Assembly: GCF_002197845.1 (NCBI RefSeq)
Contig: NZ_NIDE01000004.1
Coordinates: 248,001-312,000, forward strand
DNA: 64,000 nucleotides
From: Fimbriiglobus ruber
GTDB taxonomy: Bacteria; Planctomycetota; Planctomycetia; Gemmatales; Gemmataceae
Direction of reading: 5' to 3'
Both the position numbers and the translations under genes were made by a program. Position 1 is the stretch's first letter, and every line of letters begins with the position of its first letter. Of this stretch, positions 27,062-35,642 are shown piece after piece. The notes below the pieces were generated by a model that was not told the origin of the DNA, did not search any database, and saw nothing but the letters and a program-made list of their open reading frames with translations.

Positions 27062-28168
27062 TCATTTCGTGAGCCGGGCCGTGATGAGTACGTCGGCCCC
27101 GATGGTTTCGACGGTCGCGTCGGCCGCCGACAAAGCGTGAGCGATTTTCACTTCTCCCATGCCAGCCACGGGCGACGGCGCGGCCGCACCGCCGATCACC
27201 TTGGGGGCCACGAACACCCAGGCTTCGTCGACGAGCGCTTCGTCGAAGAGCGTCCCGAACACGCCGGCCCCGCCTTCGGCCAGGACGTTCGTCATCTTCC
27301 GGCGGCCGAGTTCCGTGAGTACCGCGGCCGCCGAGAGGCCGGCGTTTTGCGCCGGGAACTCCAGTATCTCGGCGCCGTCGTCGGCCCAGCCGGCGAGCTT
27401 GCTGGCGTTCCCGGGGCCGGTCGCGATGAGTACGGGGATGTCCCGCGCGGTCGCCCGGAGATGGCACTCCTTGGGCAGAAACCCGGACGCCGTGACCACC
27501 ACCCGCGCGGCCCGACGAGGACCGGGCGGCCGGGCGGTCAGTTGCGGGTCGTCGGCGAAGACGGTCCCGCTGCCGACCATAATGGCGTCCACGCGGCCGC
27601 GCAATTCGTGAACCCGCCGCCGCGACTCCTCGCCGCTGATCCACCGGGAGTCGCCGGTCCGCGTGGCGATCTTGCCGTCGAGCGACATCGCCCACTTCGC
27701 GATCACCCACGGCAGGCCGGTCTGCAGCAACTTCAGATAAGGGGCGTTGAGCCGCCGGGCCTCGGCTTCACAGGTGCCGACCGTCACCTCCAACCCCGCG
27801 GCCCGAAGGATGGCCAATCCGCCGCCAGCGACCTTCGGGAAGGGGTCGGCCATCGCGGCCACCACCCGTCGCACCCCGGCGCGCAACACGGCGTCGCTGC
27901 AGGGCGGTGTTTTCCCGTGGTGGCAGCATGGCTCCAGGGTGACGTACAGCGTGCCGCCGCGGGCGCGCTCGCCGGCCGCAGCGAAGGCGTGGACCTCCGC
28001 GTGCGGCCCGCCGAACTGCTGGTGCCACCCCTCGCCAACGAGACTCCCGTCCGCGGCCAGCACCACGGCCCCGACCATCGGATTCGGCTCGACGGCCCCG
28101 CGCCCCTTCGCGGCCAGCGCAACGGCGTGCTTCATCCAGCGTGCGTCGTCAGACGGGTCGGGTGCCAC
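27062..28168 (-). CDS. ribD: Riboflavin biosynthesis deaminase/reductase
   Basis: 368 residues, both domains present. The deaminase half has the zinc site HAEVHAF and PCCHHGKTPPC with the catalytic Glu in HAE; the reductase half has KWAMSLDGKIATRTGDSRWISG and VGSGTVFADDPQLTAR. It deaminates the pyrimidine product of GTP cyclohydrolase II and then reduces its ribosyl side chain, in the cytoplasm. No other rib gene is nearby. The upstream 186 bases and first codons recur in truncated form at 32851-33020. I searched the leader by eye for the FMN riboswitch consensus and did not find it. Confidence 0.96.
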   Translation of the reverse strand: MAPDPSDDARWMKHAVALAAKGRGAVEPNPMVGAVVLAADGSLVGEGWHQQFGGPHAEVHAFAAAGERARGGTLYVTLEPCCHHGKTPPCSDAVLRAGVRRVVAAMADPFPKVAGGGLAILRAAGLEVTVGTCEAEARRLNAPYLKLLQTGLPWVIAKWAMSLDGKIATRTGDSRWISGEESRRRVHELRGRVDAIMVGSGTVFADDPQLTARPPGPRRAARVVVTASGFLPKECHLRATARDIPVLIATGPGNASKLAGWADDGAEILEFPAQNAGLSAAAVLTELGRRKMTNVLAEGGAGVFGTLFDEALVDEAWVFVAPKVIGGAAAPSPVAGMGEVKIAHALSAADATVETIGADVLITARLTK

Positions 28169-28298
28169 GGTCGGGTTCCTGGTGCGGAGCGAAGGATTTC
28201 AAAACGTCCCGCGAGCCAACTCGGCCGCCGGGCGCCTATATCCATGTACAACGCGACGGACGAGTGAGCCGGCTCCGCGATACGACCGATACAACGTT
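28113..28298. repeat. ribD start and leader, copy A of a dispersed duplication
   Basis: From the first codons of ribD through about 130 bases upstream, this segment is shared with 32851-33020. The best conserved core (about 28226-28275, starting ctcggccgccgggcg) is nearly identical between the two. The core sits 60-110 bases upstream of the ribD start, where a leader or promoter element would be. Confidence 0.8.
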
Positions 28299-28739: not shown

Positions 28740-31700
28740 ATGGAGTCGCCACCGGACGCACCCGGGGTCGGGCCGTCTGCCGAATTATCCGAACCCGCCT
28801 TCCCAATCGTCGGCATCGGGGCGTCGGCCGGTGGCCTCGACGCGTTCAAGCAACTCCTCCAGGCGCTCCCCGCCGACACCGGCGCGGCGTTCGTACTCGT
28901 GCAGCACCTGGCCCCCACACACGTCAGCATGCTGGCCGACATCCTCGCCCGTTCCACGACCATGCCGGTCGTCGAGGTTAAGGACGAACCCCGGGTGACG
29001 CCCAATTGCGTCTACGTCATCCCGCCGAACCGGACGATGGTGATGATCGACGGCCACCTGAGATTACTACCGCGCGAAGAGGGGCGGGGGCAACACCGGC
29101 CCGTCGACGCGTTTCTCCGCTCCCTTGCCGAACAGGATAGCCACCAGGCCGTCGGCGTGATCCTGTCGGGCACCGGCACCGATGGCACCTTCGGATTGGC
29201 GGCGATCAAAGCCGAGGGCGGCATCACCTTCGCCCAGGACGGGACGGCCCAGCAGGACGGCATGCCGAAGAGTGCGATCGCCGCCGGGTGCGTGGACTTC
29301 ATCCTGCCGCCGGACGAGATCGCCGCCGAACTGGCCCGCATCGGCCGGCACCCCTACGTCACCCCGGACCCTCCCGGTCCCCTCGCCGCGGCCGGCAACG
29401 AACCGCTGCCGAGCGCGGCCGTCGGCAACGTCCTCCAATTGCTTCACAAGACCACCGGCGTTGATTTCCGCAACTACCGCTCGACCACCCTCTATCGGCG
29501 CATCACCCGGCGCATGCTGCTCCACAAGCTGGACGGACTGGATGAATACCTCCGGCTGCTGCGGTCCGACGCGGCCGAGGTGCAGAGTCTCTACCGCGAC
29601 ATCCTGATCAGCGTGACCGCTTTCTTCCGCGACCCGCAGTCGATCGACGCCCTGAAGACTACAGTCTTTCCCGCGCTGCTCAAGGGCCGGACGCGGAACG
29701 AACCAGTACGGGTCTGGGTACTCGGGTGCTCGACCGGCGAGGAGGCGTACTCGATCGCCATCGCCATCGCCGAGTGCGTCGCGGACCGGGGAACTCAGGT
29801 TCCGGCCCAGATCTTTGCCACCGACCTGAACGAGCACGGGATCGCGAAGGCCCGCGCGGGTCTGTACGCCAAGAACATCGTCCAGGACGTCTCCCCGGAA
29901 CGTCTGGCCCGGTTCTTCGTCGAGACGGACGCGGGCTACCAGGTGGTCAAATCGGTCCGCGACGCGTGTGTCTTCGCCCGGCAAAATGTGCTGAGTGACC
30001 CGCCGTTTTCGCGCATGGACCTGATCACCTGCCGCAACCTGCTCATTTACATGGAGCCGGTCCTTCAGCGCCAGATCCTCCCATTGTTTCATTACGCCCT
30101 CAAACCGAACGGCTACCTCTGGCTGGGCAGTTCCGAGACGGTCGGCACGTTCACCGACCTGTTCGGGGTGAATGATTCCCGGCACAAAATCTTCCACAAG
30201 AAGGGCGCACAGACGCAGCTGCACCTGACGACCCCCCTGACGACCCCCGTATGGCCGTCGCGCGCGGGCCGGGTCGAGCCGCCGCCGGGGGAGCGGCGCG
30301 GGGCCACCGCGGACGCGCAGAAGGAAGCCGACCGTTTTGCTCTGGCGAAGTATTCCCCGCCCGGGGTTCTCGTAAATTCGGACCTGGAGGTACTCCAGTT
30401 CCGGGGGGACACCGGTCCGTATTTGACGCAGCCGCCCGGCAAGCCCAGCCTCAACCTGCTGAAGATGACCCGCGAGGGGCTGACGATGGGCCTCCGGACG
30501 CTGGTGCAGAAGGTGTTGGAGGACGGCACAACCGGTCGCCACGAGGGGCTGCGAGTCAAGTCCGACGGCGCGACGCGGGAAGTGAACCTGCAGGTCGTGC
30601 CGCTCCGCGGGGAGGGGGCCGCGGGGTGCTTCCTGGTTCTGTTCGAGCCCGTCGGCGGCCCTACCCGTGACGTGTCGGCAATTACTCCCGCGGCACCCGA
30701 AGCTGCGGACGCCGAACGGGAGATCGCGCGTCTGGTGCACGAGCTATCCGCCACGCGGGAATACATGCAATCGCTCGGCGAGCAACAGGAGGCGTCGAAC
30801 GAGGAATTGCAGTCCGCCAACGAGGAGATCCAGTCCGCCAACGAGGAACTCCAGAGCATCAACGAGGAATTACAAACGTCCAAGGAGGAGATTCAATCGA
30901 GCAACGAAGAACTGACCACGGTCAACGAGGAAATGATCCACCGCAACGAGCAGCTCGGGCGGGCGAACGGCGACCTGATCAACTTCCTTTCCAGTACGCA
31001 CCTGGCCCTGGTGACGCTGGGTCCGGATCTGTGCGTTCGACGGTTCACGCCGCAGGCGGAAAAAATGCTGAATCTGACCACCGCCGCCGTCGGTCGGCCG
31101 ATCGGCGACCTCGACCTGCCGATCGACTATCCCGAACTGGCGCGGGAATTGGCGGTGGTTATCAACACCGCGCGCATTGTGGAGCAGGAAGTTCGGGACC
31201 GCAATGGCCGGTGGTTTTCCATGCGACTGCGGCCGTACCGTACCCCCGACAACCACATTGACGGGGCGGTTCTCGTGTTCGTCGATATCACCGTGCAGAA
31301 GCGTGCGGAAGACGCGCTGCGGGAGGCCGACCGGCGCAAGGACGAGTTTCTGGCCATGCTCGCCCACGAACTCCGCAACCCGCTGGCCCCCTTAATGAGT
31401 TCCGTCGAACTGCTGCGACTGGCAGCCGGGGGCGAAGGAACGGAGCGGGTGCGGGCCGTGATGGGTCGGCAGTTGGACAAGCTCAAGCGACTGGTGGACG
31501 ACCTGTTGGATGTGTCCCGTGTCAATCAGGGCAAGATCGAGTTGAAGTCGGAACCGATGGATCTTGTGGGGACCGTCTCGGCGGCTGTCGAGGCGGTCCA
31601 GCTTCAGGTCGACGCGCAAGCCCAGACGCTGTCGGTCGTCGTCCCGCCCGGCACACTGTCCGTGCAAGGGGACCCGACGCGACTGGAACAGGTCGTCACC

Positions 31701-32435
31701 AACCTGCTCGGCAACGCCGTGAAGTACACCGACGTCGGCGGCCGGATCGAGGTGGTGCTGGAGCGGCGGGAGAGACAAGCAATACTGCGCGTGCGAGACT
31801 CGGGGATCGGGATCGCGCCGGAGCTGCTGCCGCGGGTGTTCGACCTGTTCACCCAGGCCGACACGTCCTCCGCCCGCTCGCGCGGCGGGTTGGGGATCGG
31901 GTTGTCTCTGGTCCGCCAACTGGTCCAACTCCACGGCGGCAGCGTCGAGGCCAACAGCGCGGGGTTGGGCCGCGGCAGCGAGTTCGTGGTACGCCTTCCG
32001 CTTCTGCCCGAACTGCCCGGACTCACACAGGTGCCGGAGCGTGTGCATACGGTGGTTGCGCCGAGCCCCACTCTGGGCGGAATTCTCGTCGTCGACGATA
32101 ACGTGGACGCCGCCGAAAGTTTGGCCCTGTTGCTGCGCCTGTCCGGCCACGAGGTCCGTGTCGCGCACGCCGGTCTCGCCGCCATCGCGATCGCCGCGGA
32201 GTTTCAACCACAGGCCGTGATCCTCGACATCGGCATGCCCGGAATGGACGGCTACGCGGTCGCGCGAGCCTTGCGGACACACGTCGGCGGGCAAGAGAGA
32301 ATTCTTGTAACGCTGAGCGGCTACGGGCAGGAGGAGGACCGGCAGCGATCGCGGGAGGCCGGGTGCAACGGGCACCTGGTCAAGCCGGTCAACCTGCCGG
32401 ACCTGGAAAAGCTGTTAGCCTCGCTGGCAAAGTGA
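28740..32435 (+). CDS. CheB-CheR-PAS hybrid histidine kinase with receiver
   Basis: 1231 residues. CheB methylesterase domain at about 22-205 with Ser in GIGASAGG, His in VQHLAPTH and Asp in SGTGTDGT. CheR methyltransferase at about 225-480 with the SAM loop VWVLGCSTGEEAYSIA. A PAS-like region, then a strikingly repetitive coiled coil (ASNEELQSANEEIQSANEEL and on) at about 685-740, a second PAS, HisKA with FLAMLAHELRNPLAPL, HATPase_c (NLLGNAVKYTDVGG, DSGIGIAPELL) and a C-terminal receiver with ILVVDDN, LDIGMPGMDG and LVKPVN. This CheB/CheR fusion class is usually linked to alternative, non-flagellar signalling. No chemoreceptor or CheA is nearby. Start ATG at 28740. Confidence 0.95.
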   Translation: MESPPDAPGVGPSAELSEPAFPIVGIGASAGGLDAFKQLLQALPADTGAAFVLVQHLAPTHVSMLADILARSTTMPVVEVKDEPRVTPNCVYVIPPNRTMVMIDGHLRLLPREEGRGQHRPVDAFLRSLAEQDSHQAVGVILSGTGTDGTFGLAAIKAEGGITFAQDGTAQQDGMPKSAIAAGCVDFILPPDEIAAELARIGRHPYVTPDPPGPLAAAGNEPLPSAAVGNVLQLLHKTTGVDFRNYRSTTLYRRITRRMLLHKLDGLDEYLRLLRSDAAEVQSLYRDILISVTAFFRDPQSIDALKTTVFPALLKGRTRNEPVRVWVLGCSTGEEAYSIAIAIAECVADRGTQVPAQIFATDLNEHGIAKARAGLYAKNIVQDVSPERLARFFVETDAGYQVVKSVRDACVFARQNVLSDPPFSRMDLITCRNLLIYMEPVLQRQILPLFHYALKPNGYLWLGSSETVGTFTDLFGVNDSRHKIFHKKGAQTQLHLTTPLTTPVWPSRAGRVEPPPGERRGATADAQKEADRFALAKYSPPGVLVNSDLEVLQFRGDTGPYLTQPPGKPSLNLLKMTREGLTMGLRTLVQKVLEDGTTGRHEGLRVKSDGATREVNLQVVPLRGEGAAGCFLVLFEPVGGPTRDVSAITPAAPEAADAEREIARLVHELSATREYMQSLGEQQEASNEELQSANEEIQSANEELQSINEELQTSKEEIQSSNEELTTVNEEMIHRNEQLGRANGDLINFLSSTHLALVTLGPDLCVRRFTPQAEKMLNLTTAAVGRPIGDLDLPIDYPELARELAVVINTARIVEQEVRDRNGRWFSMRLRPYRTPDNHIDGAVLVFVDITVQKRAEDALREADRRKDEFLAMLAHELRNPLAPLMSSVELLRLAAGGEGTERVRAVMGRQLDKLKRLVDDLLDVSRVNQGKIELKSEPMDLVGTVSAAVEAVQLQVDAQAQTLSVVVPPGTLSVQGDPTRLEQVVTNLLGNAVKYTDVGGRIEVVLERRERQAILRVRDSGIGIAPELLPRVFDLFTQADTSSARSRGGLGIGLSLVRQLVQLHGGSVEANSAGLGRGSEFVVRLPLLPELPGLTQVPERVHTVVAPSPTLGGILVVDDNVDAAESLALLLRLSGHEVRVAHAGLAAIAIAAEFQPQAVILDIGMPGMDGYAVARALRTHVGGQERILVTLSGYGQEEDRQRSREAGCNGHLVKPVNLPDLEKLLASLAK

Positions 32436-32850
32436 CTCGGGGTCGCTGCCGAGAAGGGCGGCACTTGTAAAGGGCGGTACGGTCCCTGACCGCGCAGGTG
32501 GTCCCGACCGCCCCCGCGGACCCCTCATACACACGCCTCGTTGTCGATGCACTTTCAGAAAACACGATGTAAGGCGCAAAAAGCGCAAAAACCCTCCCCG
32601 CCATACGACCCGCTGGGATGACCGCGCCGCAGCCGGATTCCGATCCGCGTCGTGGTTAGTCTGTGGTCAACGGACCGAGCCGTTCGTGTGGCCATCCGCA
32701 CATCCATTTCGGGGAGTCGGCCACGGTGACACCGAGACGCCATCCGGTCGGGAAAGATTCCCGCTCGCGACTTGCGGAGGCAGATGGAGTCACCCCTCAC
32801 TCCCGGCCGCGGAGAGCATAAGTAGCGCAGAGCAGCGGATGAAAGAGGCA
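32436..32850. other. Intergenic region 3' of the hybrid kinase
   Basis: About 415 bases without a credible gene. At 32575-32605 the phrase aaggcgcaaaaagcgcaaaaac resembles a widespread intergenic repeat wording, but only one arm is present. No terminator hairpin of good quality was found after the kinase stop. Confidence 0.35.
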
Positions 32851-33020
32851 GCCAGCGCAAGGGCGTACTTCATCCAGCGTTCGTCGGCGACTAGTTGGGT
32901 TCCTGGTGCGTGGCGAAGGATTTCGAAAATTACCGCGAACCAACTCGGCCGCCGGGCGTCTATATCCATGTACAACGCGACGGACGAGTGAACCGGCCGC
33001 GGGATACGACCGAAACAACG
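32851..33020. pseudogene. Truncated duplicate of the ribD start and leader, copy B
   Basis: On the minus strand this reads DERWMKYALALAA, equivalent to DARWMKHAVALAA of ribD, and then departs from ribD after about 15 codons. The upstream leader is shared with 28113-28298, including a nearly identical core of about 60 bases. The copy has no intact start context and no downstream ribD sequence. The two copies lie about 4.7 kb apart on either side of the CheB/CheR hybrid gene and in the same orientation. Confidence 0.7.
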
Positions 33021-33223
33021 ACAACGAACCATCATAGTTGAGACGCCATGTTATCCCTCACCGCGAGTTATGAACGTCGCCTGACGGTCGCCGGCCATGA
33101 TGCCGGCCGACTGAACGGTTACGGGCTTAACGCCGGTGAACGGATGGCAGCGAAGGCCGGCAGCCAGGATTGGCAGACCGACGACGGATGACCCCCAGCT
33201 TCGGGTGCACACTAGCACACGCG
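33021..33223. other. Unassigned segment before the tRNA array
   Basis: About 200 bases with small GC-rich inverted pieces (gtcgccggccatgatgccggccgac near 33088) and no credible gene. A minus-strand frame of 104 residues covers part of it but runs antisense into the first tRNA gene and has no family. It could hold the promoter or leader of the array. Confidence 0.35.
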
Positions 33224-33256
33224 CCGGCCGGGGGACAACCAACCCCGGCCGGTTTT
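33224..33256 (+). terminator. Terminator-like hairpin just before the tRNA array
   Basis: Ten perfect GC pairs (ccggccgggg / ccccggccgg) with a 9-base loop, followed by ttttcgttt. This is the form of a factor-independent terminator on the plus strand, 26 bases before the first tRNA. No gene precedes it closely, so it may end an unseen transcript or attenuate the array. Confidence 0.65.
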
Positions 33257-33281: not shown

Positions 33282-33353
33282 CGCCCGTTCGTCTACCAGC
33301 GAGGACGCCGGTTTTTCACACCGGAAGAAGGGGTGCGACTCCCCTACGGGTGA
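33282..33353 (+). tRNA. tRNA-Glu(TTC)
   Basis: Acceptor CGCCCGT/ACGGGTG, canonical D-arm, anticodon stem CCGGT/ACCGG, anticodon at 33315-33317. The T-loop is TGCGACT, so the usual T55 is G. A73, no encoded CCA. Confidence 0.85.
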
Positions 33354-33405
33354 CTCACGCACCAAGGACTGGTGCGGGCAGGTCGGAGCAAGGAAGGATG
33401 AACAC

Positions 33406-33477
33406 GAGGTCCAGGTGTTAGCGGCAGCACTCCGGTCTCTTAAACCGGATGTGAGGGTTCAAGTCCCTCGGGCCTCA
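33406..33477 (+). tRNA. tRNA-Lys(CTT)
   Basis: Acceptor GAGGTCC/GGGCCTC, anticodon stem CCGGT/ACCGG, anticodon at 33439-33441, T-arm GAGGG TTCAAGT CCCTC. A73 followed by ctg. Confidence 0.88.
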
Positions 33478-33498
33478 CTGTCGAGTGCGACGAATTTC

Positions 33499-33569
33499 AG
33501 GGGTGTGGTGTAACGGTAGCACGGCTGTTTCCAAAACTGCCTGCGTGGGTTCGAATCCTGCCGCCCCTG
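33499..33569 (+). tRNA. tRNA-Trp(CCA)
   Basis: Acceptor AGGGGTG/CGCCCCT, short D-loop AACGGTA, anticodon at 33531-33533. The anticodon stem GCTGT/ACTGC has one T-T mismatch. G73 as expected for Trp, followed by ctg. Confidence 0.85.
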
Positions 33570-33581
33570 CTGACGACTTCC

Positions 33582-33652
33582 GCGCCCATGATGTAGCGGG
33601 AGCCTGCCGCCTTGCCAAGGCGGAAGTGTGGGTTCGACTCCCACTGGGCGCT
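33582..33652 (+). tRNA. tRNA-Gly(GCC)
   Basis: Perfect acceptor GCGCCCA/TGGGCGC, anticodon stem CCGCC/GGCGG, anticodon at 33614-33616, T-arm GTGGG TTCGACT CCCAC. The D-stem ATGT/GCCT has a mismatch. T73 (usual for Gly), then ctg. Confidence 0.88.
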
Positions 33653-33665
33653 CTGAATGTGGATC

Positions 33666-33736
33666 GCACCTGTGTTGTAACGGTAGCCTCCCGTCTTGGT
33701 AAGACGGTCGCGTGGGTTCGACTCCCGCCTGGTGTT
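33666..33736 (+). tRNA. tRNA-Thr(GGT)
   Basis: Anticodon stem CCGTC/GACGG, anticodon at 33698-33700, T-arm GTGGG/CCCGC. The acceptor GCACCTG/CTGGTGT has a T-T mismatch and a G-T closing pair; the D-stem is weak. T73, then ttc instead of ctg. Confidence 0.75.
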
Positions 33737-33752
33737 TTCGGTGAAGACAAAC

Positions 33753-33823
33753 GCGCCCGTGATGTAACGGAGCATGCCCCCTTTTCTAAAGGGGACGTGC
33801 GGGTGCAACCCCCGCCGGGCGTC
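33753..33823 (+). tRNA. tRNA-Arg(TCT)
   Basis: Acceptor GCGCCCG/CGGGCGT, anticodon stem CCCCT/AGGGG, anticodon at 33785-33787. The T-loop TGCAACC has G in place of T55. C73 followed by gtg. Confidence 0.82.
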
Positions 33824-33840
33824 GTGACTACGTGACTGAT

Positions 33841-33911
33841 GCGTCTGTGAGGTAACGGTAGCCTCCCAACTTCCCAAGCTGGTCGTGCGGGTTCAAATCC
33901 CGCCAGACGCT
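33841..33911 (+). tRNA. tRNA-Gly(CCC)
   Basis: Perfect acceptor GCGTCTG/CAGACGC, D-stem AGGT/GCCT, anticodon at 33873-33875. The anticodon stem CCAAC/GCTGG has one A-C mismatch. T73, then ctg. Confidence 0.85.
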
Positions 33912-33932
33912 CTGCCCGCTGTGCGGGTCAAT

Positions 33933-34007
33933 GCCCTTGTGGAGCAGCCTGGAATGCTCGCCACTCTGTCAACGTGGAGATCGCGGGTTCAAATCCCGCC
34001 AAGGGCG
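33933..34007 (+). tRNA. tRNA-Asp(GTC)
   Basis: Acceptor GCCCTTG/CAAGGGC, full D-arm GAGC/GCTC with a GG-containing loop, anticodon at 33968-33970. G73 is the Asp identity base. One T-C mismatch closes the anticodon loop. Confidence 0.87.
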
Positions 34008-34026
34008 CCTGTCGGTGTTGATGTGA

Positions 34027-34100
34027 GGCACGGTCCGCTAATTGGCAACGCGGCCAAGCTCAAACCTTGGTGATTGTGGGTTCGACTCCCACCCGTGCTA
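34027..34100 (+). tRNA. tRNA with Leu anticodon CAA but short variable loop
   Basis: Acceptor GGCACGG/CCGTGCT, anticodon stem CCAAG/CTTGG, anticodon at 34061-34063, T-arm GTGGG TTCGACT CCCAC, A73, then ctg. The variable region is five bases (TGATT), whereas bacterial leucine tRNAs are class II with a long arm. Charging by LeuRS is uncertain. Confidence 0.8.
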
Positions 34101-34112
34101 CTGATGATCTCT

Positions 34113-34194
34113 GCGCCGGCCGGCATGGGCTGAGCCAAGCGGTCTGTAAAATCGTGCCCTTCGGGGCGTGCAGGTTCAAATCCTGCCCGGCGCA
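34113..34194 (+). tRNA. tRNA-Tyr(GTA)
   Basis: Perfect acceptor GCGCCGG/CCGGCGC, anticodon at 34146-34148, and a long variable arm GCCC-TTCG-GGGC as expected for bacterial Tyr. The anticodon stem GCGGT/ATCGT uses two G-T pairs. A73, then ctg. Confidence 0.88.
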
Positions 34195-34206
34195 CTGAAA
34201 CATGAC

Positions 34207-34279
34207 GGCCCGTTCGGCTAGCGGTCTAGGCCGCCGCCCTCTCACGGCGGAAACGGGGGTTCGAGTCCCCCACGGGTCA
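34207..34279 (+). tRNA. tRNA-Glu(CTC)
   Basis: Acceptor GGCCCGT/ACGGGTC, anticodon stem CCGCC/GGCGG, anticodon at 34241-34243, T-arm GGGGG TTCGAGT CCCCC. A73, then ctg. Confidence 0.9.
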
Positions 34280-34298
34280 CTGACATGGGTCACTGAAC

Positions 34299-34372
34299 GG
34301 TGATGTAGCCCAATTGGTAGCGGCAACGGTCTCAGAAGCCGTCAAGTGTGGGTTCGACTCCCACCGTCACCA
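34299..34372 (+). tRNA. tRNA with Leu anticodon CAG but short variable loop
   Basis: Acceptor GGTGATG/CGTCACC, anticodon stem ACGGT/GCCGT, anticodon at 34333-34335, T-arm GTGGG TTCGACT CCCAC, A73, then ctg. The variable region is only CAAGT, so this is a class I shape with a leucine anticodon. Confidence 0.8.
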
Positions 34373-34416
34373 CTGACACGCCCGGCGTGTCGCGCCCCTC
34401 ACGGGGCACCAGAAAT

Positions 34417-34484
34417 TGCAGGCGGGCCGGCGCCCGACCGGGTCTCATAAGCCTGGACGCTGGGTTCGACTCCCAGGTCTGCAA
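34417..34484 (+). tRNA. tRNA with CAT anticodon, minimal D-arm (first of a pair)
   Basis: Acceptor TGCAGGC/GTCTGCA with T1-A72, anticodon stem CGGGT/GCCTG, anticodon at 34446-34448, T-arm CTGGG TTCGACT CCCAG. The D-arm is reduced to GGGC-CGGC-GCCC with a four-base loop, giving a 68-base tRNA. It lacks the initiator GGG/CCC pairs. Met or lysidine-type Ile are both possible. Confidence 0.72.
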
Positions 34485-34486
34485 CT

Positions 34487-34554
34487 TGCGGACGGGTTGG
34501 CACTCGACCGGGTCTCATAAGCCTGGTTTCCCAGTTCGATTCTCGGGTCCGCAA
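34487..34554 (+). tRNA. tRNA with CAT anticodon, minimal D-arm (second of a pair)
   Basis: Acceptor TGCGGAC/GTCCGCA, the same anticodon arm as its neighbour, anticodon at 34516-34518, D-arm GGGT-TGGC-ACTC. The T-stem CCCAG/CTCGG has a C-C mismatch. It starts two bases after the previous gene, so this is a tandem duplicate. Confidence 0.7.
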
Positions 34555-34598
34555 CTGACCGCCGGCCGGTCTCCCACGACCGCGCCGGCGGCGACAAC

Positions 34599-34672
34599 GA
34601 CCAGGTACCCCAACTGGTAGAGGGGTCAGGTTGAGAGCCTGATTTGTGTGGGTTCGACCCCCACCCTGGTCA
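34599..34672 (+). tRNA. tRNA with Leu anticodon GAG but short variable loop
   Basis: Perfect acceptor GACCAGG/CCTGGTC, D-stem CCCC/GGGG, anticodon stem TCAGG/CCTGA, anticodon at 34633-34635, five-base variable region TTTGT, T-arm GTGGG TTCGACC CCCAC. A73, then ctg. This is the third leucine-anticodon class I member. Confidence 0.82.
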
Positions 34673-34693
34673 CTGCGGCAACCGCCGCTCAAC

Positions 34694-34764
34694 GGGATCG
34701 TCGTCCAACAGGAGGACACACGTTTCGCACGCGTGAAATCAGGGTGCAACTCCCTGCGGTTCCA
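34694..34764 (+). tRNA. tRNA-Ala(CGC)
   Basis: Acceptor GGGATCG/CGGTTCC, anticodon stem CACGT/GCGTG, anticodon at 34726-34728. The T-loop TGCAACT has G at position 55. The usual Ala G3-T70 pair is present. A73, then ctc. Confidence 0.8.
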
Positions 34765-34782
34765 CTCCCCACCTGGGGTTAC

Positions 34783-34853
34783 GGGCTCGTGGTCTAACGG
34801 GATGACGCCGGTATGGCATACCGGCAGTCCGGGTTCAATTCCCGGCGGGTCCA
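34783..34853 (+). tRNA. tRNA-Ala(GGC)
   Basis: Acceptor GGGCTCG/CGGGTCC with the Ala identity pair G3-T70, anticodon stem CCGGT/ACCGG, anticodon at 34815-34817, T-arm CCGGG TTCAATT CCCGG. A73, then ttc. Confidence 0.88.
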
Positions 34854-34881
34854 TTCCGCTGATACGGCGGACGACGGTTAC

Positions 34882-34967
34882 GGAAGGGAGCCGGATACGG
34901 CTGGCCGGCGCACACTGCTAACGTGTTGGCCCGAAAGGGTGTGAGGGTTCGAATCCCTCTCCTTCCG
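34882..34967 (+). tRNA. tRNA-Ser(GCT)
   Basis: 86 bases with a long variable arm (GCCC-GAAA-GGGT), acceptor GGAAGGG/TCCTTCC, anticodon at 34917-34919, T-arm GAGGG TTCGAAT CCCTC. G73 is the Ser identity base. One A-C mismatch closes the anticodon loop. Followed by ctg. Confidence 0.88.
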
Positions 34968-34976
34968 CTGATAACT

Positions 34977-35049
34977 GCCCTGGTAGTGAAACGGATCATC
35001 ATTCCGCGCTTCGAACGCGGCGTTCCAGGTTCGAATCCTGGCCGGGGTA
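34977..35049 (+). tRNA. tRNA-Arg(TCG)
   Basis: Acceptor GCCCTGG/CCGGGGT with two G-T pairs, anticodon stem CCGCG/CGCGG, anticodon at 35011-35013, T-arm CCAGG TTCGAAT CCTGG. A73, then cta. Confidence 0.85.
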
Positions 35050-35145
35050 CTATTCGGCTCAGGCAATAAGTGGACTGTTAGTGAGAATTTGATCTCCGGA
35101 GGTGCGGAAAAGATAATGCGTGGCGCGAAATAAACGATCGAACAC

Positions 35146-35218
35146 GGTCCCGTAGCCCAGTGGCCAAGGCGCTTCCCCGACACGGAAGAGAGCGGTGGTT
35201 CGAGTCCACCCGGGATCA
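35146..35218 (+). tRNA. tRNA-Val(GAC)
   Basis: Acceptor GGTCCCG/CGGGATC, anticodon stem CTTCC/GGAAG, anticodon at 35179-35181, T-arm GGTGG TTCGAGT CCACC. A73 as usual for Val, then ctt. Confidence 0.88.
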
Positions 35219-35250
35219 CTTTCCCCCGCGTTTGCCCCGCGGGGACCGAT

Positions 35251-35324
35251 GCAGCCCGTAGTGTAGTGGCCGGCACGCGACGCTGTGAACGTCGAAGTGG
35301 CGGGTTCAAATCCCCCCGGGTTGC
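35251..35324 (+). tRNA. tRNA-His(GTG)
   Basis: It has the His-specific extra G-1 pairing with C73, acceptor CAGCCCG/CGGGTTG, anticodon stem CGACG/CGTCG and anticodon at 35285-35287. The T-stem GCGGG/CCCCC has one mismatch. Followed by ctg. Confidence 0.88.
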
Positions 35325-35335
35325 CTGATTTTCCT

Positions 35336-35409
35336 GCCGGTGTGGCGCGACACAGAAAGGCACCGATTTCGTAAGTCGGGTCATGCGGGTGCGAATCCCG
35401 CCGCCGGCT
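35336..35409 (+). tRNA. tRNA-Thr(CGT)
   Basis: Acceptor GCCGGTG/CGCCGGC, anticodon stem CCGAT/GTCGG, anticodon at 35370-35372. The T-loop TGCGAAT has G at position 55 and the D-loop lacks the GG pair, so the elbow contact is probably lost. T73, then ctc. Confidence 0.75.
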
Positions 35410-35642
35410 CTCGACAGTGAGATTATTTGGCCGGTCGGTAGAAATCCGTTTTGTGCGTTCAAATGGATAGCATGAGCCGATCAATCCGCCTCGTAGTCGA
35501 CACGATCGCACAACGAATTACGGCATCTATGGCACGATGTCCTGTTTGTCGATAGAACATCTTCAAACTCCGGATTCGGGGCACTCGCGGGCGCGGTTTC
35601 CCGCAACGCGTCCGAACCGGGCTGAGAAGGTGTTGACGTAAG

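Follow-up and report, generated by a model that had tools for sequence, protein, structure and literature searches.

A 64,000-nt window (C4:248001-312000) of the genome of Fimbriiglobus ruber (Planctomycetota, Gemmataceae; 12.36 Mb, 20 contigs) contains an array of 22 tRNA genes (array A), and a second, complementary array of 9 tRNA genes (array B) is present on another contig. Comparative analysis of these loci makes it very probable that arrays A and B together are a normally silent spare set of tRNAs under ribosome-mediated transcription attenuation. At both arrays, a promoter motif is followed by a short leader open reading frame (ORF) and by an intrinsic terminator that precedes the first tRNA gene; at array A, these elements lie within the 350 nt upstream. 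An earlier reading of the window from its letters and ORFs (here referred to as the sequence-only reading) had described array A itself, and covered neither the upstream promoter motif, leader ORF, and terminator nor array B.

Leader, terminator, and promoter motif upstream of the arrays

The leader ORF of array A (33048..33191, plus strand) has 47 codons and reads MLSLTASYERRLTVAGHDAGRLNGYGLNAGERMAAKAGSQDWQTDDG. Array A is without tRNAs for Phe, Ile, Pro, Cys, Asn, and Gln, as the sequence-only reading had correctly listed, and its leader contains no Phe, Ile, Pro, or Cys, the exceptions being two Asn and two Gln residues; in total, 91% of the residues after Met are decoded by array A. The leader of array B in this genome (33 codons) reads MKPKPFNTGFQQPQPSGFGFGLPTQPAPFFPTG. 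Examples from other genomes are the leaders of G018:A, MTRLLTSTELHLTTAGVRASVVAKKMRLAGEVVGGLGYWLTLDTSG, of G012:B, MTGFIKQPRNPQRPQPRGFGFGPFNRPNQFPNQFRTPIRIQTG, and of G074, MLRQREMLRAMTRESSESLDRSERFSLECESLERLSQLELSLDCESSRRLERDTP, with an array limited to tRNAs for Glu, Asp, Leu, Met, Ser, and Arg.

The match between leader and array was assessed in 49 pairs, kept when a terminator of -18 kcal or stronger was preceded by a leader of 14-62 codons that starts with ATG and stops 10-36 nt upstream of it, and was followed by more than one tRNA; the loci are BLAST matches to arrays A and B of this genome, and leaders within one genus are related. On average, 0.754 of the leader residues are matched by the own array, compared to 0.496 upon shuffled pairing (0/20000 shuffles as good), so that the leaders are enriched in codons tied to the regulated genes, as attenuator leaders are; when each genus and type contributes a single pair (n=16), the values are 0.702 and 0.449 (0/20000). 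The own array fits the leader better than the swapped A/B array in 16 of the 16 genomes that have both leaders. Phe accounts for 69 of 547 leader residues when tRNA-Phe is in the array and for 4 of 1364 when it is not, and Phe, Pro, Ile, Cys, Asn, and Gln jointly make up 75 of 1247 residues in A leaders versus 368 of 664 in B leaders. For Lys, the codons follow the isoacceptor, with 28 AAG and 3 AAA in A leaders (tRNA anticodon CUU) and 24 AAA and 5 AAG in B leaders (UUU; Fisher p=1e-8). Among small A-type arrays, the own leader ranks 1 of 49 for G074 and G034, 2 for G045, and 6 for G028:A. The +1 and +2 frames of the leaders contain 53 and 78 stops, respectively, and give a lower match, and a chance leader composition is ruled out by the shuffled pairing, the other frames, and the Lys codons. 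The leader evolves as a coding sequence, with pooled nonsynonymous (pN) and synonymous (pS) values of 0.048 and 0.139 in 12 pairs, among which G052:B/G053:B has a ratio >1. Many A and B leaders end in Gly followed by the stop codon (TSG, RTG, DG), and this conserved end might slow termination and thereby keep the ribosome at the stop codon.

Between the leader and the first tRNA gene of array A lies an intrinsic terminator, CCGGCCGGGG...CCCCGGCCGG-TTTT (33224..33256, plus strand), with 25 nt separating the T run from the first tRNA. Its hairpin has a predicted stability of -26.7 kcal/mol, which none of 200 shuffles equalled. A generic promoter and terminator scan, in which loops of up to 8 nt are allowed, listed neither this terminator nor anything else at the leader. 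Terminators of the same sequence type also precede A arrays in several other genera; the sequence alone is not diagnostic, since the exact pattern occurs in 103 stretches among genome contigs, and the 80 of these that were listed are mostly from unrelated bacteria; the culturable Gemmataceae strain Limnoglobus roseus PX52 is among the matches. Among Gemmataceae arrays that comprise at least three tRNAs and have 300 nt of sequence upstream, a strong terminator is found in 48 of 66, compared to 7 of 27 control loci, which are housekeeping tRNA loci of this genome and in part overlap; leader plus terminator, as defined by an automatic rule, is found in 46 of the 66 arrays and 1 of the 27 loci. 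In the kept loci, the stop codon of the leader precedes a strong hairpin by 17-34 nt, and the T run and the first tRNA follow. The T run starts at most 40 nt from the first tRNA in 44 of 49 loci and at most 63 nt in 47 of 49, and in those 44 the gap is too short for a separate promoter.

The stop codon of the array A leader and the bases next to it (33189..33199, plus strand; UGACCCCCAGC) are complementary to the 5' arm of the terminator and form a candidate anti-terminator strand. The stop-codon strand and the 5' arm pair as ACCCCYGGC with GCCGGGGGU in A arrays, as UUCCCCG with CGGGGAA in G074, and as GACGCC-GGCGUC, GAUGCC-GGCAUC, or GACACC-GGUGUC in other arrays. Over 52 loci, single-tRNA loci included, the anti-terminator duplex has a mean of -17.25 kcal versus -11.23 for shuffled strands, and swapping arms among arrays never gave an equally good result, neither overall (0/5000) nor within B (0/5000). 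Taken singly, 34 of the 52 duplexes pass the 5% level, among them that of array B of this genome (24/500 shuffles as good). When the free nascent RNA is folded, the sequestered fraction of the 5' arm is 0.81; it is 0.31 with a ribosome-sized block of 30 nt centred on the stop codon and 0.76 with a control block that occupies the 30 nt just upstream. In 47 of 49 loci, the stop block gives a lower value than the control block. A ribosome finishing the leader is thus predicted to block the anti-terminator pairing, a prediction that is weak for the array of the window taken alone. In these models this gives the logic of a trp-type attenuator, in which the signal would be a leader left unfinished.

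Upstream of the leader, the motif GCGAACC-N15-CGTCTA (32935..32962, plus strand), which we take to resemble promoters of extracytoplasmic function (ECF) sigma factors, is the likely start of the array A transcript. With a spacer of 14-16, the exact motif has a single copy in the whole genome, at array A, and none in the reversed control; array B of this genome has a copy with one mismatch. One-mismatch copies number 23 in this genome versus 11 in the control, and no wider regulon is drawn for the motif. The strict motif precedes 34 of 49 leaders (spacer of 15 in 30, of 16 in 4), and a relaxed form lies within 200 nt of the leader in 41 of 49, compared to a shuffle rate of 1.3%. Genomes G009 and G010, each a single contig, have two copies of the motif, one at array A and one at array B, and no others. 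Control of array A by a T-box was ruled out, as the leader has no Rfam match and the tRNA family is the only one to reach its gathering score in the window (cmscan, Rfam).

The same arrangement is found in other families of the class. Within the class, 252 of the 397 genomes have matches at E≤1e-6, in many cases through a single tRNA. Outside Gemmataceae, 20 loci were fetched from 19 genomes, and many of them carry a single large array, with as many as 37 tRNAs that cover almost every amino acid, preceded by another terminator, AAAGCCCGGTGTC...GACACCGGGCTTT. With limits of -14 for the energy and 15-36 nt for the window, 15 of these loci were kept; all 15 pass the leader test, and the anti-terminator passes the 5% level in 12. 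Seven of the 15 leaders end in PLRL or PLRT, and such a conserved end, too, might keep the ribosome at the stop codon. In the leaders of these mostly unsplit arrays, Phe, Pro, Ile, Cys, Asn, and Gln account for 188 of 641 residues. The simplest history would be one ancestral array that was split in Gemmataceae, followed by a split of the leader content.

Spare tRNAs, housekeeping tRNAs, and conservation of the locus

Array A (33282..35410, plus strand) was delineated with ARAGORN, which called 20 genes, and cmscan, which added two; the 22 same-strand units of the sequence-only reading are thereby confirmed. The order is Glu-UUC, Lys-CUU, Trp-CCA, Gly-GCC, Thr-GGU, Arg-UCU, Gly-CCC, Asp-GUC, Leu-CAA, Tyr-GUA, Glu-CUC, Leu-CAG, two Met-CAU, Leu-GAG, Ala-CGC, Ala-GGC, Ser-GCU, Arg-UCG, Val-GAC, His-GUG, and Thr-CGU. 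The two genes not called by ARAGORN are tRNA-Arg(UCU) (33753..33823, plus strand; 43.2 bits in a focused cmscan) and tRNA-Ala(CGC) (34694..34764, plus strand; 51.1 bits, gathering score), with anticodons assigned by eye. In the focused cmscan, 18 units score as tRNA with E≤1.2e-5, Tyr and Ser appear only as tRNA-Sec below the gathering score, and the two Met units are not called, i.e., they are called by ARAGORN alone. These two Met(CAU) tRNAs (34416..34555, plus strand; 69 nt each) have a very short D arm as judged from sequence, ARAGORN, and folds; by eye, the D arms differ by a paired change (GGGC-CGGC-GCCC / GGGU-UGGC-ACUC), and the folds give the short D arm in the first and not in the second.

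Array B comprises Asn-GUU, Gln-UUG, Leu-UAA, Gln-CUG, Lys-UUU, Phe-GAA, Gly-UCC, Pro-CGG, and Pro-GGG (C17:218189-218936). None of its anticodons is common to array A, and it supplies Phe, Pro, Asn, and Gln, i.e., four of the six amino acids missing from array A. The A and B anticodons called by ARAGORN are disjoint in 20 of the 23 Gemmataceae genomes from which both types were fetched, and the other three share only Arg-UCG. A tRNA-Ile predicted in the B arrays of genus g6 from the Ile in their leaders was not confirmed, as Ile-GAU was found only at two loci, approximately 1.2 kb downstream.

A genome-wide search gave at least 83 tRNA matches among the 150 of 299 candidates that were scored, and ARAGORN found tRNAs for all 20 amino acids at the loci fetched outside array A. 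Array A is therefore an auxiliary set and cannot be the sole one, as the sequence-only reading had proposed. In this genome, 26 of the 29 ARAGORN tRNAs of arrays A and B share their anticodon with some housekeeping tRNA, with a mean identity of 0.62 to the best same-anticodon match (range 0.49-0.93, the highest being array B Pro-GGG); for Gln-CUG, Gly-CCC, and Glu-CUC, the tRNAs found included no housekeeping counterpart. The four Leu tRNAs of the two arrays are 74-75 nt and lack a long variable arm, as opposed to 81-85 nt for the five housekeeping Leu tRNAs, and across Gemmataceae 82 of 110 array Leu tRNAs are at most 78 nt long.

Array A DNA matches 79 of 95 family genomes at E≤0.001, the weak matches being single tRNAs, and its gene order and content are kept across Gemmataceae genera, e.g., Glu-Trp-Asp-Lys-Gly-Thr-Leu-Tyr-Glu-Leu-Met-Leu-Leu-Ala-Ser-Arg-Val-His-Thr in G008. 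Among 34 loci with an array of at least five tRNAs, some of which are cut by contig ends, ribD lies divergently 268-641 nt upstream of the array in 22 other loci, and ArsR and MATE genes are found downstream in 14 and 13 other loci, respectively. The tRNAs are more identical than the spacers in six of six close pairs. Consensus-stem cells are 94-100% canonical in Gemmataceae orthologues, with compensatory changes on both sides in each tRNA family tested; this consensus is itself a prediction made on those alignments and, in some families, leaves parts of the cloverleaf uncovered. From the order, neighbours, tRNA versus spacer identity, and compensatory stem changes, array A looks like a stable chromosomal locus under selection and not a relic. 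The frequently mismatched stems of the sequence-only reading thus have to be qualified, its suggestion of a decaying set is not supported, and its placement outside any recognisable mobile element agrees with the conserved chromosomal neighbours. Synteny, stem covariation, and tRNA/spacer identity led us to reject decay or a mobile origin; with its neighbours conserved, array A was not found inside a phage or an integrative and conjugative element, in an analysis that included no search aimed at integrase or phage genes.

Several further observations concern the surroundings and variants of the arrays. In the window, a kinase gene (28740-32435) separates the minus-strand ribD (27062-28168) from the array that ribD adjoins elsewhere. 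A fragment spanning the 5' end of ribD and the region upstream of it is duplicated (28170-28296 and 32894-33020; 127 nt, 89% identity), and the second copy, within 32848-33020, lies directly before the leader, as if an insertion had duplicated the promoter region. Array A matches none of the 13 genomes of genera g25, g30, and g36, all drafts of 2.8-4.7 Mb, in which the spare set may have been lost with genome reduction. In the A arrays of genus g6, tRNA-Trp(CCA) is 82-84 nt in 14 of the 15 that have one (71 nt in G014; 72 nt in the window), a length that suggests a long variable arm. In G051 (L102), array A is split by approximately 12 kb, with no strong terminator before the second half. Additional divergent tRNAs of this genome lie outside both arrays (L032 at C6:29887-30508, L055, L033, and L054), namely Arg-CCG, Arg-GCG, two Cys-GCA, together with Ser-GGA, Ser-UGA, and Ser-CGA, whose acceptor stem is that of the array Ser; these Arg, Cys, and Ser tRNAs may complete the spare set. 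The rule used for the arrays found no leader plus terminator at the C6 mini-cluster (Arg-CCG, Arg-GCG, Cys). Lastly, L048 (C5:584737-584822) is an 86-nt tRNA with an ARAGORN anticodon of TTA, which would read the stop codon UAA and is probably a mis-set loop of a Leu-like tRNA.

Proposed mechanism and rival explanations

The elements identified in silico, namely the promoter motif, the leader, the terminator, the anti-terminator covariation, and the match between leader and array, can be combined into one mechanism. RNA polymerase would start at the dedicated ECF-like promoter and transcribe the short leader ORF and then the intrinsic terminator, with leader codons for the amino acids carried by the downstream tRNAs. 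A ribosome that finishes the leader would sit at the stop codon and cover the anti-terminator strand, upon which the terminator would fold and no tRNAs would be made. When one of these amino acids cannot be supplied, owing to absence, cleavage, or lack of charging of its tRNA, the ribosome would stall upstream; the stop-codon strand could then pair with the 5' arm of the terminator, and this stalling would drive read-through by the polymerase and production of the matching spare tRNAs. Depletion of tRNAs, e.g., by toxins that cleave them or by antiphage nucleases, is presumed to be the trigger, and not a shortage of amino acids; the array tRNAs would be charged and used, and their divergent bodies could escape nucleases. 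On this sequence evidence, we think that the planctomycete arrays replace depleted tRNAs.

Four other explanations have to be weighed against such replacement. That the attenuator is real but senses general amino-acid starvation, with the extra tRNAs as stress signals or decoys, is possible, if unlikely: classical leader-peptide attenuators sense uncharged tRNA, and the present data do not separate uncharged from missing tRNA, but extra tRNA gives no relief when an amino acid is lacking, and the leader match at the level of the Lys isoacceptor suits sensing of particular tRNAs. A second, constitutive housekeeping set that boosts translation, with a leader tuning supply to demand in normal growth, might be called for by three array anticodons (Gln-CUG, Gly-CCC, and Glu-CUC) that are represented by no housekeeping tRNA among those found. 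Under the usual wobble rules, however, these codons should be readable by Gln-UUG, Gly-UCC, and Glu-UUC, all of which are present, and the strong terminator predicts a low basal output; this explanation is considered improbable.

It is still less credible that the terminator merely ends an upstream transcript and insulates an array with its own promoter between terminator and first tRNA. Strong terminators do lie within 130 nt upstream of 7 of the 27 partly overlapping housekeeping loci, but in 44 of 49 kept loci no more than 40 nt lie between the start of the T run and the first tRNA, the conserved promoter motif precedes the leader, a leader accompanies the terminator at only 1 of those 27 loci as opposed to 46 of 66 arrays, and the stop-codon strand covaries with the terminator arm. 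The least credible of all, with hardly any weight, is a decaying or phage-derived relic without function, whose upstream features belong to other genes. The divergence from the housekeeping set (mean identity 0.62), the odd short-arm Leu and mini-D-arm Met tRNAs, the arrays of 27-28 tRNA genes on three mycobacterial plasmids, and tRNA-rich phages (PMC10264068) are what such a relic would bring to mind; the conserved order and chromosomal neighbours, the 94-100% canonical stem cells with compensatory changes, the higher conservation of tRNA than of spacer (6/6 pairs), and the leaders that match their arrays all speak against it.

A spare set under attenuation has its own difficulties. Within array A of the window, the anti-terminator duplex is not beyond shuffles (86/500 as good), 18 of the 52 loci fail at the 5% level, and G052:B, G053:B, and G054:B are without such pairing. 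Twenty of the 66 arrays fail the automatic leader and terminator test; of these, G010:B, G015:B, G022:B, G092:B, and G094:A have both elements by inspection, with a weaker T run, and the remainder are internal fragments, divergent clusters, or arrays seemingly without the layout (G021:B, G050:B). The leaders of G051:A, G052:A, and G053:A, which are small A-type arrays, reach only ranks 13, 24, and 26 of 49, and 8 of the 49 leaders match their own array at less than half of the residues, mostly at short array fragments with 2-4 detected tRNAs. Ile makes up 32 of 664 residues in B leaders with no Ile tRNA found in those arrays, and A leaders contain 12 TTA codons with arrays that are mostly without Leu-UAA. 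The motif is not confined to arrays everywhere, as one of the two copies in G051 lies elsewhere and G074 has none. The leader rule was fixed after the first examples had been seen, and expression of the arrays is a prediction from sequence analysis. In view of these sample limits, the best support is given by swapping A and B within genomes, by swapping terminator arms among arrays, and by the loci from other families in the class.

Known systems and implications for planctomycetes

The trp and his attenuators consist of a short leader ORF rich in codons of the regulated amino acid, a terminator, and a mutually exclusive anti-terminator. A leader ORF, terminator, and alternative anti-terminator are likewise present here, but the output is a tRNA array instead of enzymes, the leader samples many amino acids and mirrors the contents of the array, and the anti-terminator strand begins at the stop codon. 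The trn operon of Anabaena sp. PCC 7120 has 26 tRNA genes on a megaplasmid and, according to PMC10272220, stays silent under standard culture conditions, is switched on by translation-targeting antibiotics, and favours survival. Array A resembles it as a long auxiliary tRNA array beside a housekeeping set, but is chromosomal, and the spare set here is split into two complementary parts. In the same paper, a protein repressor, TrcR, acts at the trn promoter, whereas control here apparently lies in a leader peptide and terminator in the RNA; the main text of PMC10272220, as far as available, has no word beginning with leader, attenuat, or terminator. Sensing of several translation stresses by one upstream ORF (uORF) is described for toiL of Escherichia coli topAI-yjhQ, which, according to the abstract of PMC12121999, works by occlusion of the ribosome-binding site and Rho with a toxin-antitoxin output, unlike the array here. 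Phage tRNA sets have been proposed as replacements for cleaved host tRNAs against anticodon nucleases (PMC10264068); those reside in phage genomes, whereas the array here is a host locus with conserved neighbours. The mycobacterial plasmid arrays (L325-L327) resemble array A in having 27-28 tRNAs on one strand (ARAGORN), but no strong terminator lies within 130 nt before the first tRNA in the three of three checked. Among the literature matches listed (best 20 of 56; 1 of 1; full texts not covered), none describes a tRNA array controlled by leader-peptide attenuation, nor was there one on tRNA arrays in Planctomycetes or Gemmata (best 20 of 7177; best 20 of 118; 9 of 9).

Why large bacterial arrays keep a low-scoring second set of tRNAs is a puzzle, to which the control region described here appears to give an answer that is apparent in the DNA, because the tRNAs sensed by the region are the same ones that the array encodes. 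It is probable that this is a translation failsafe shared by planctomycetes across the class, in which the leader lists the spare tRNA kit and a shortage of any tRNA of the kit would release the kit; when the ancestral kit was divided in Gemmataceae, the leader would have been divided too, both halves mainly retaining codons for their own tRNAs, down to the Lys isoacceptor. If true, attenuation would extend from amino-acid enzymes to the decoding machinery itself, and these loci would be a natural sensor of tRNA depletion by toxins, antiphage nucleases, or drugs.

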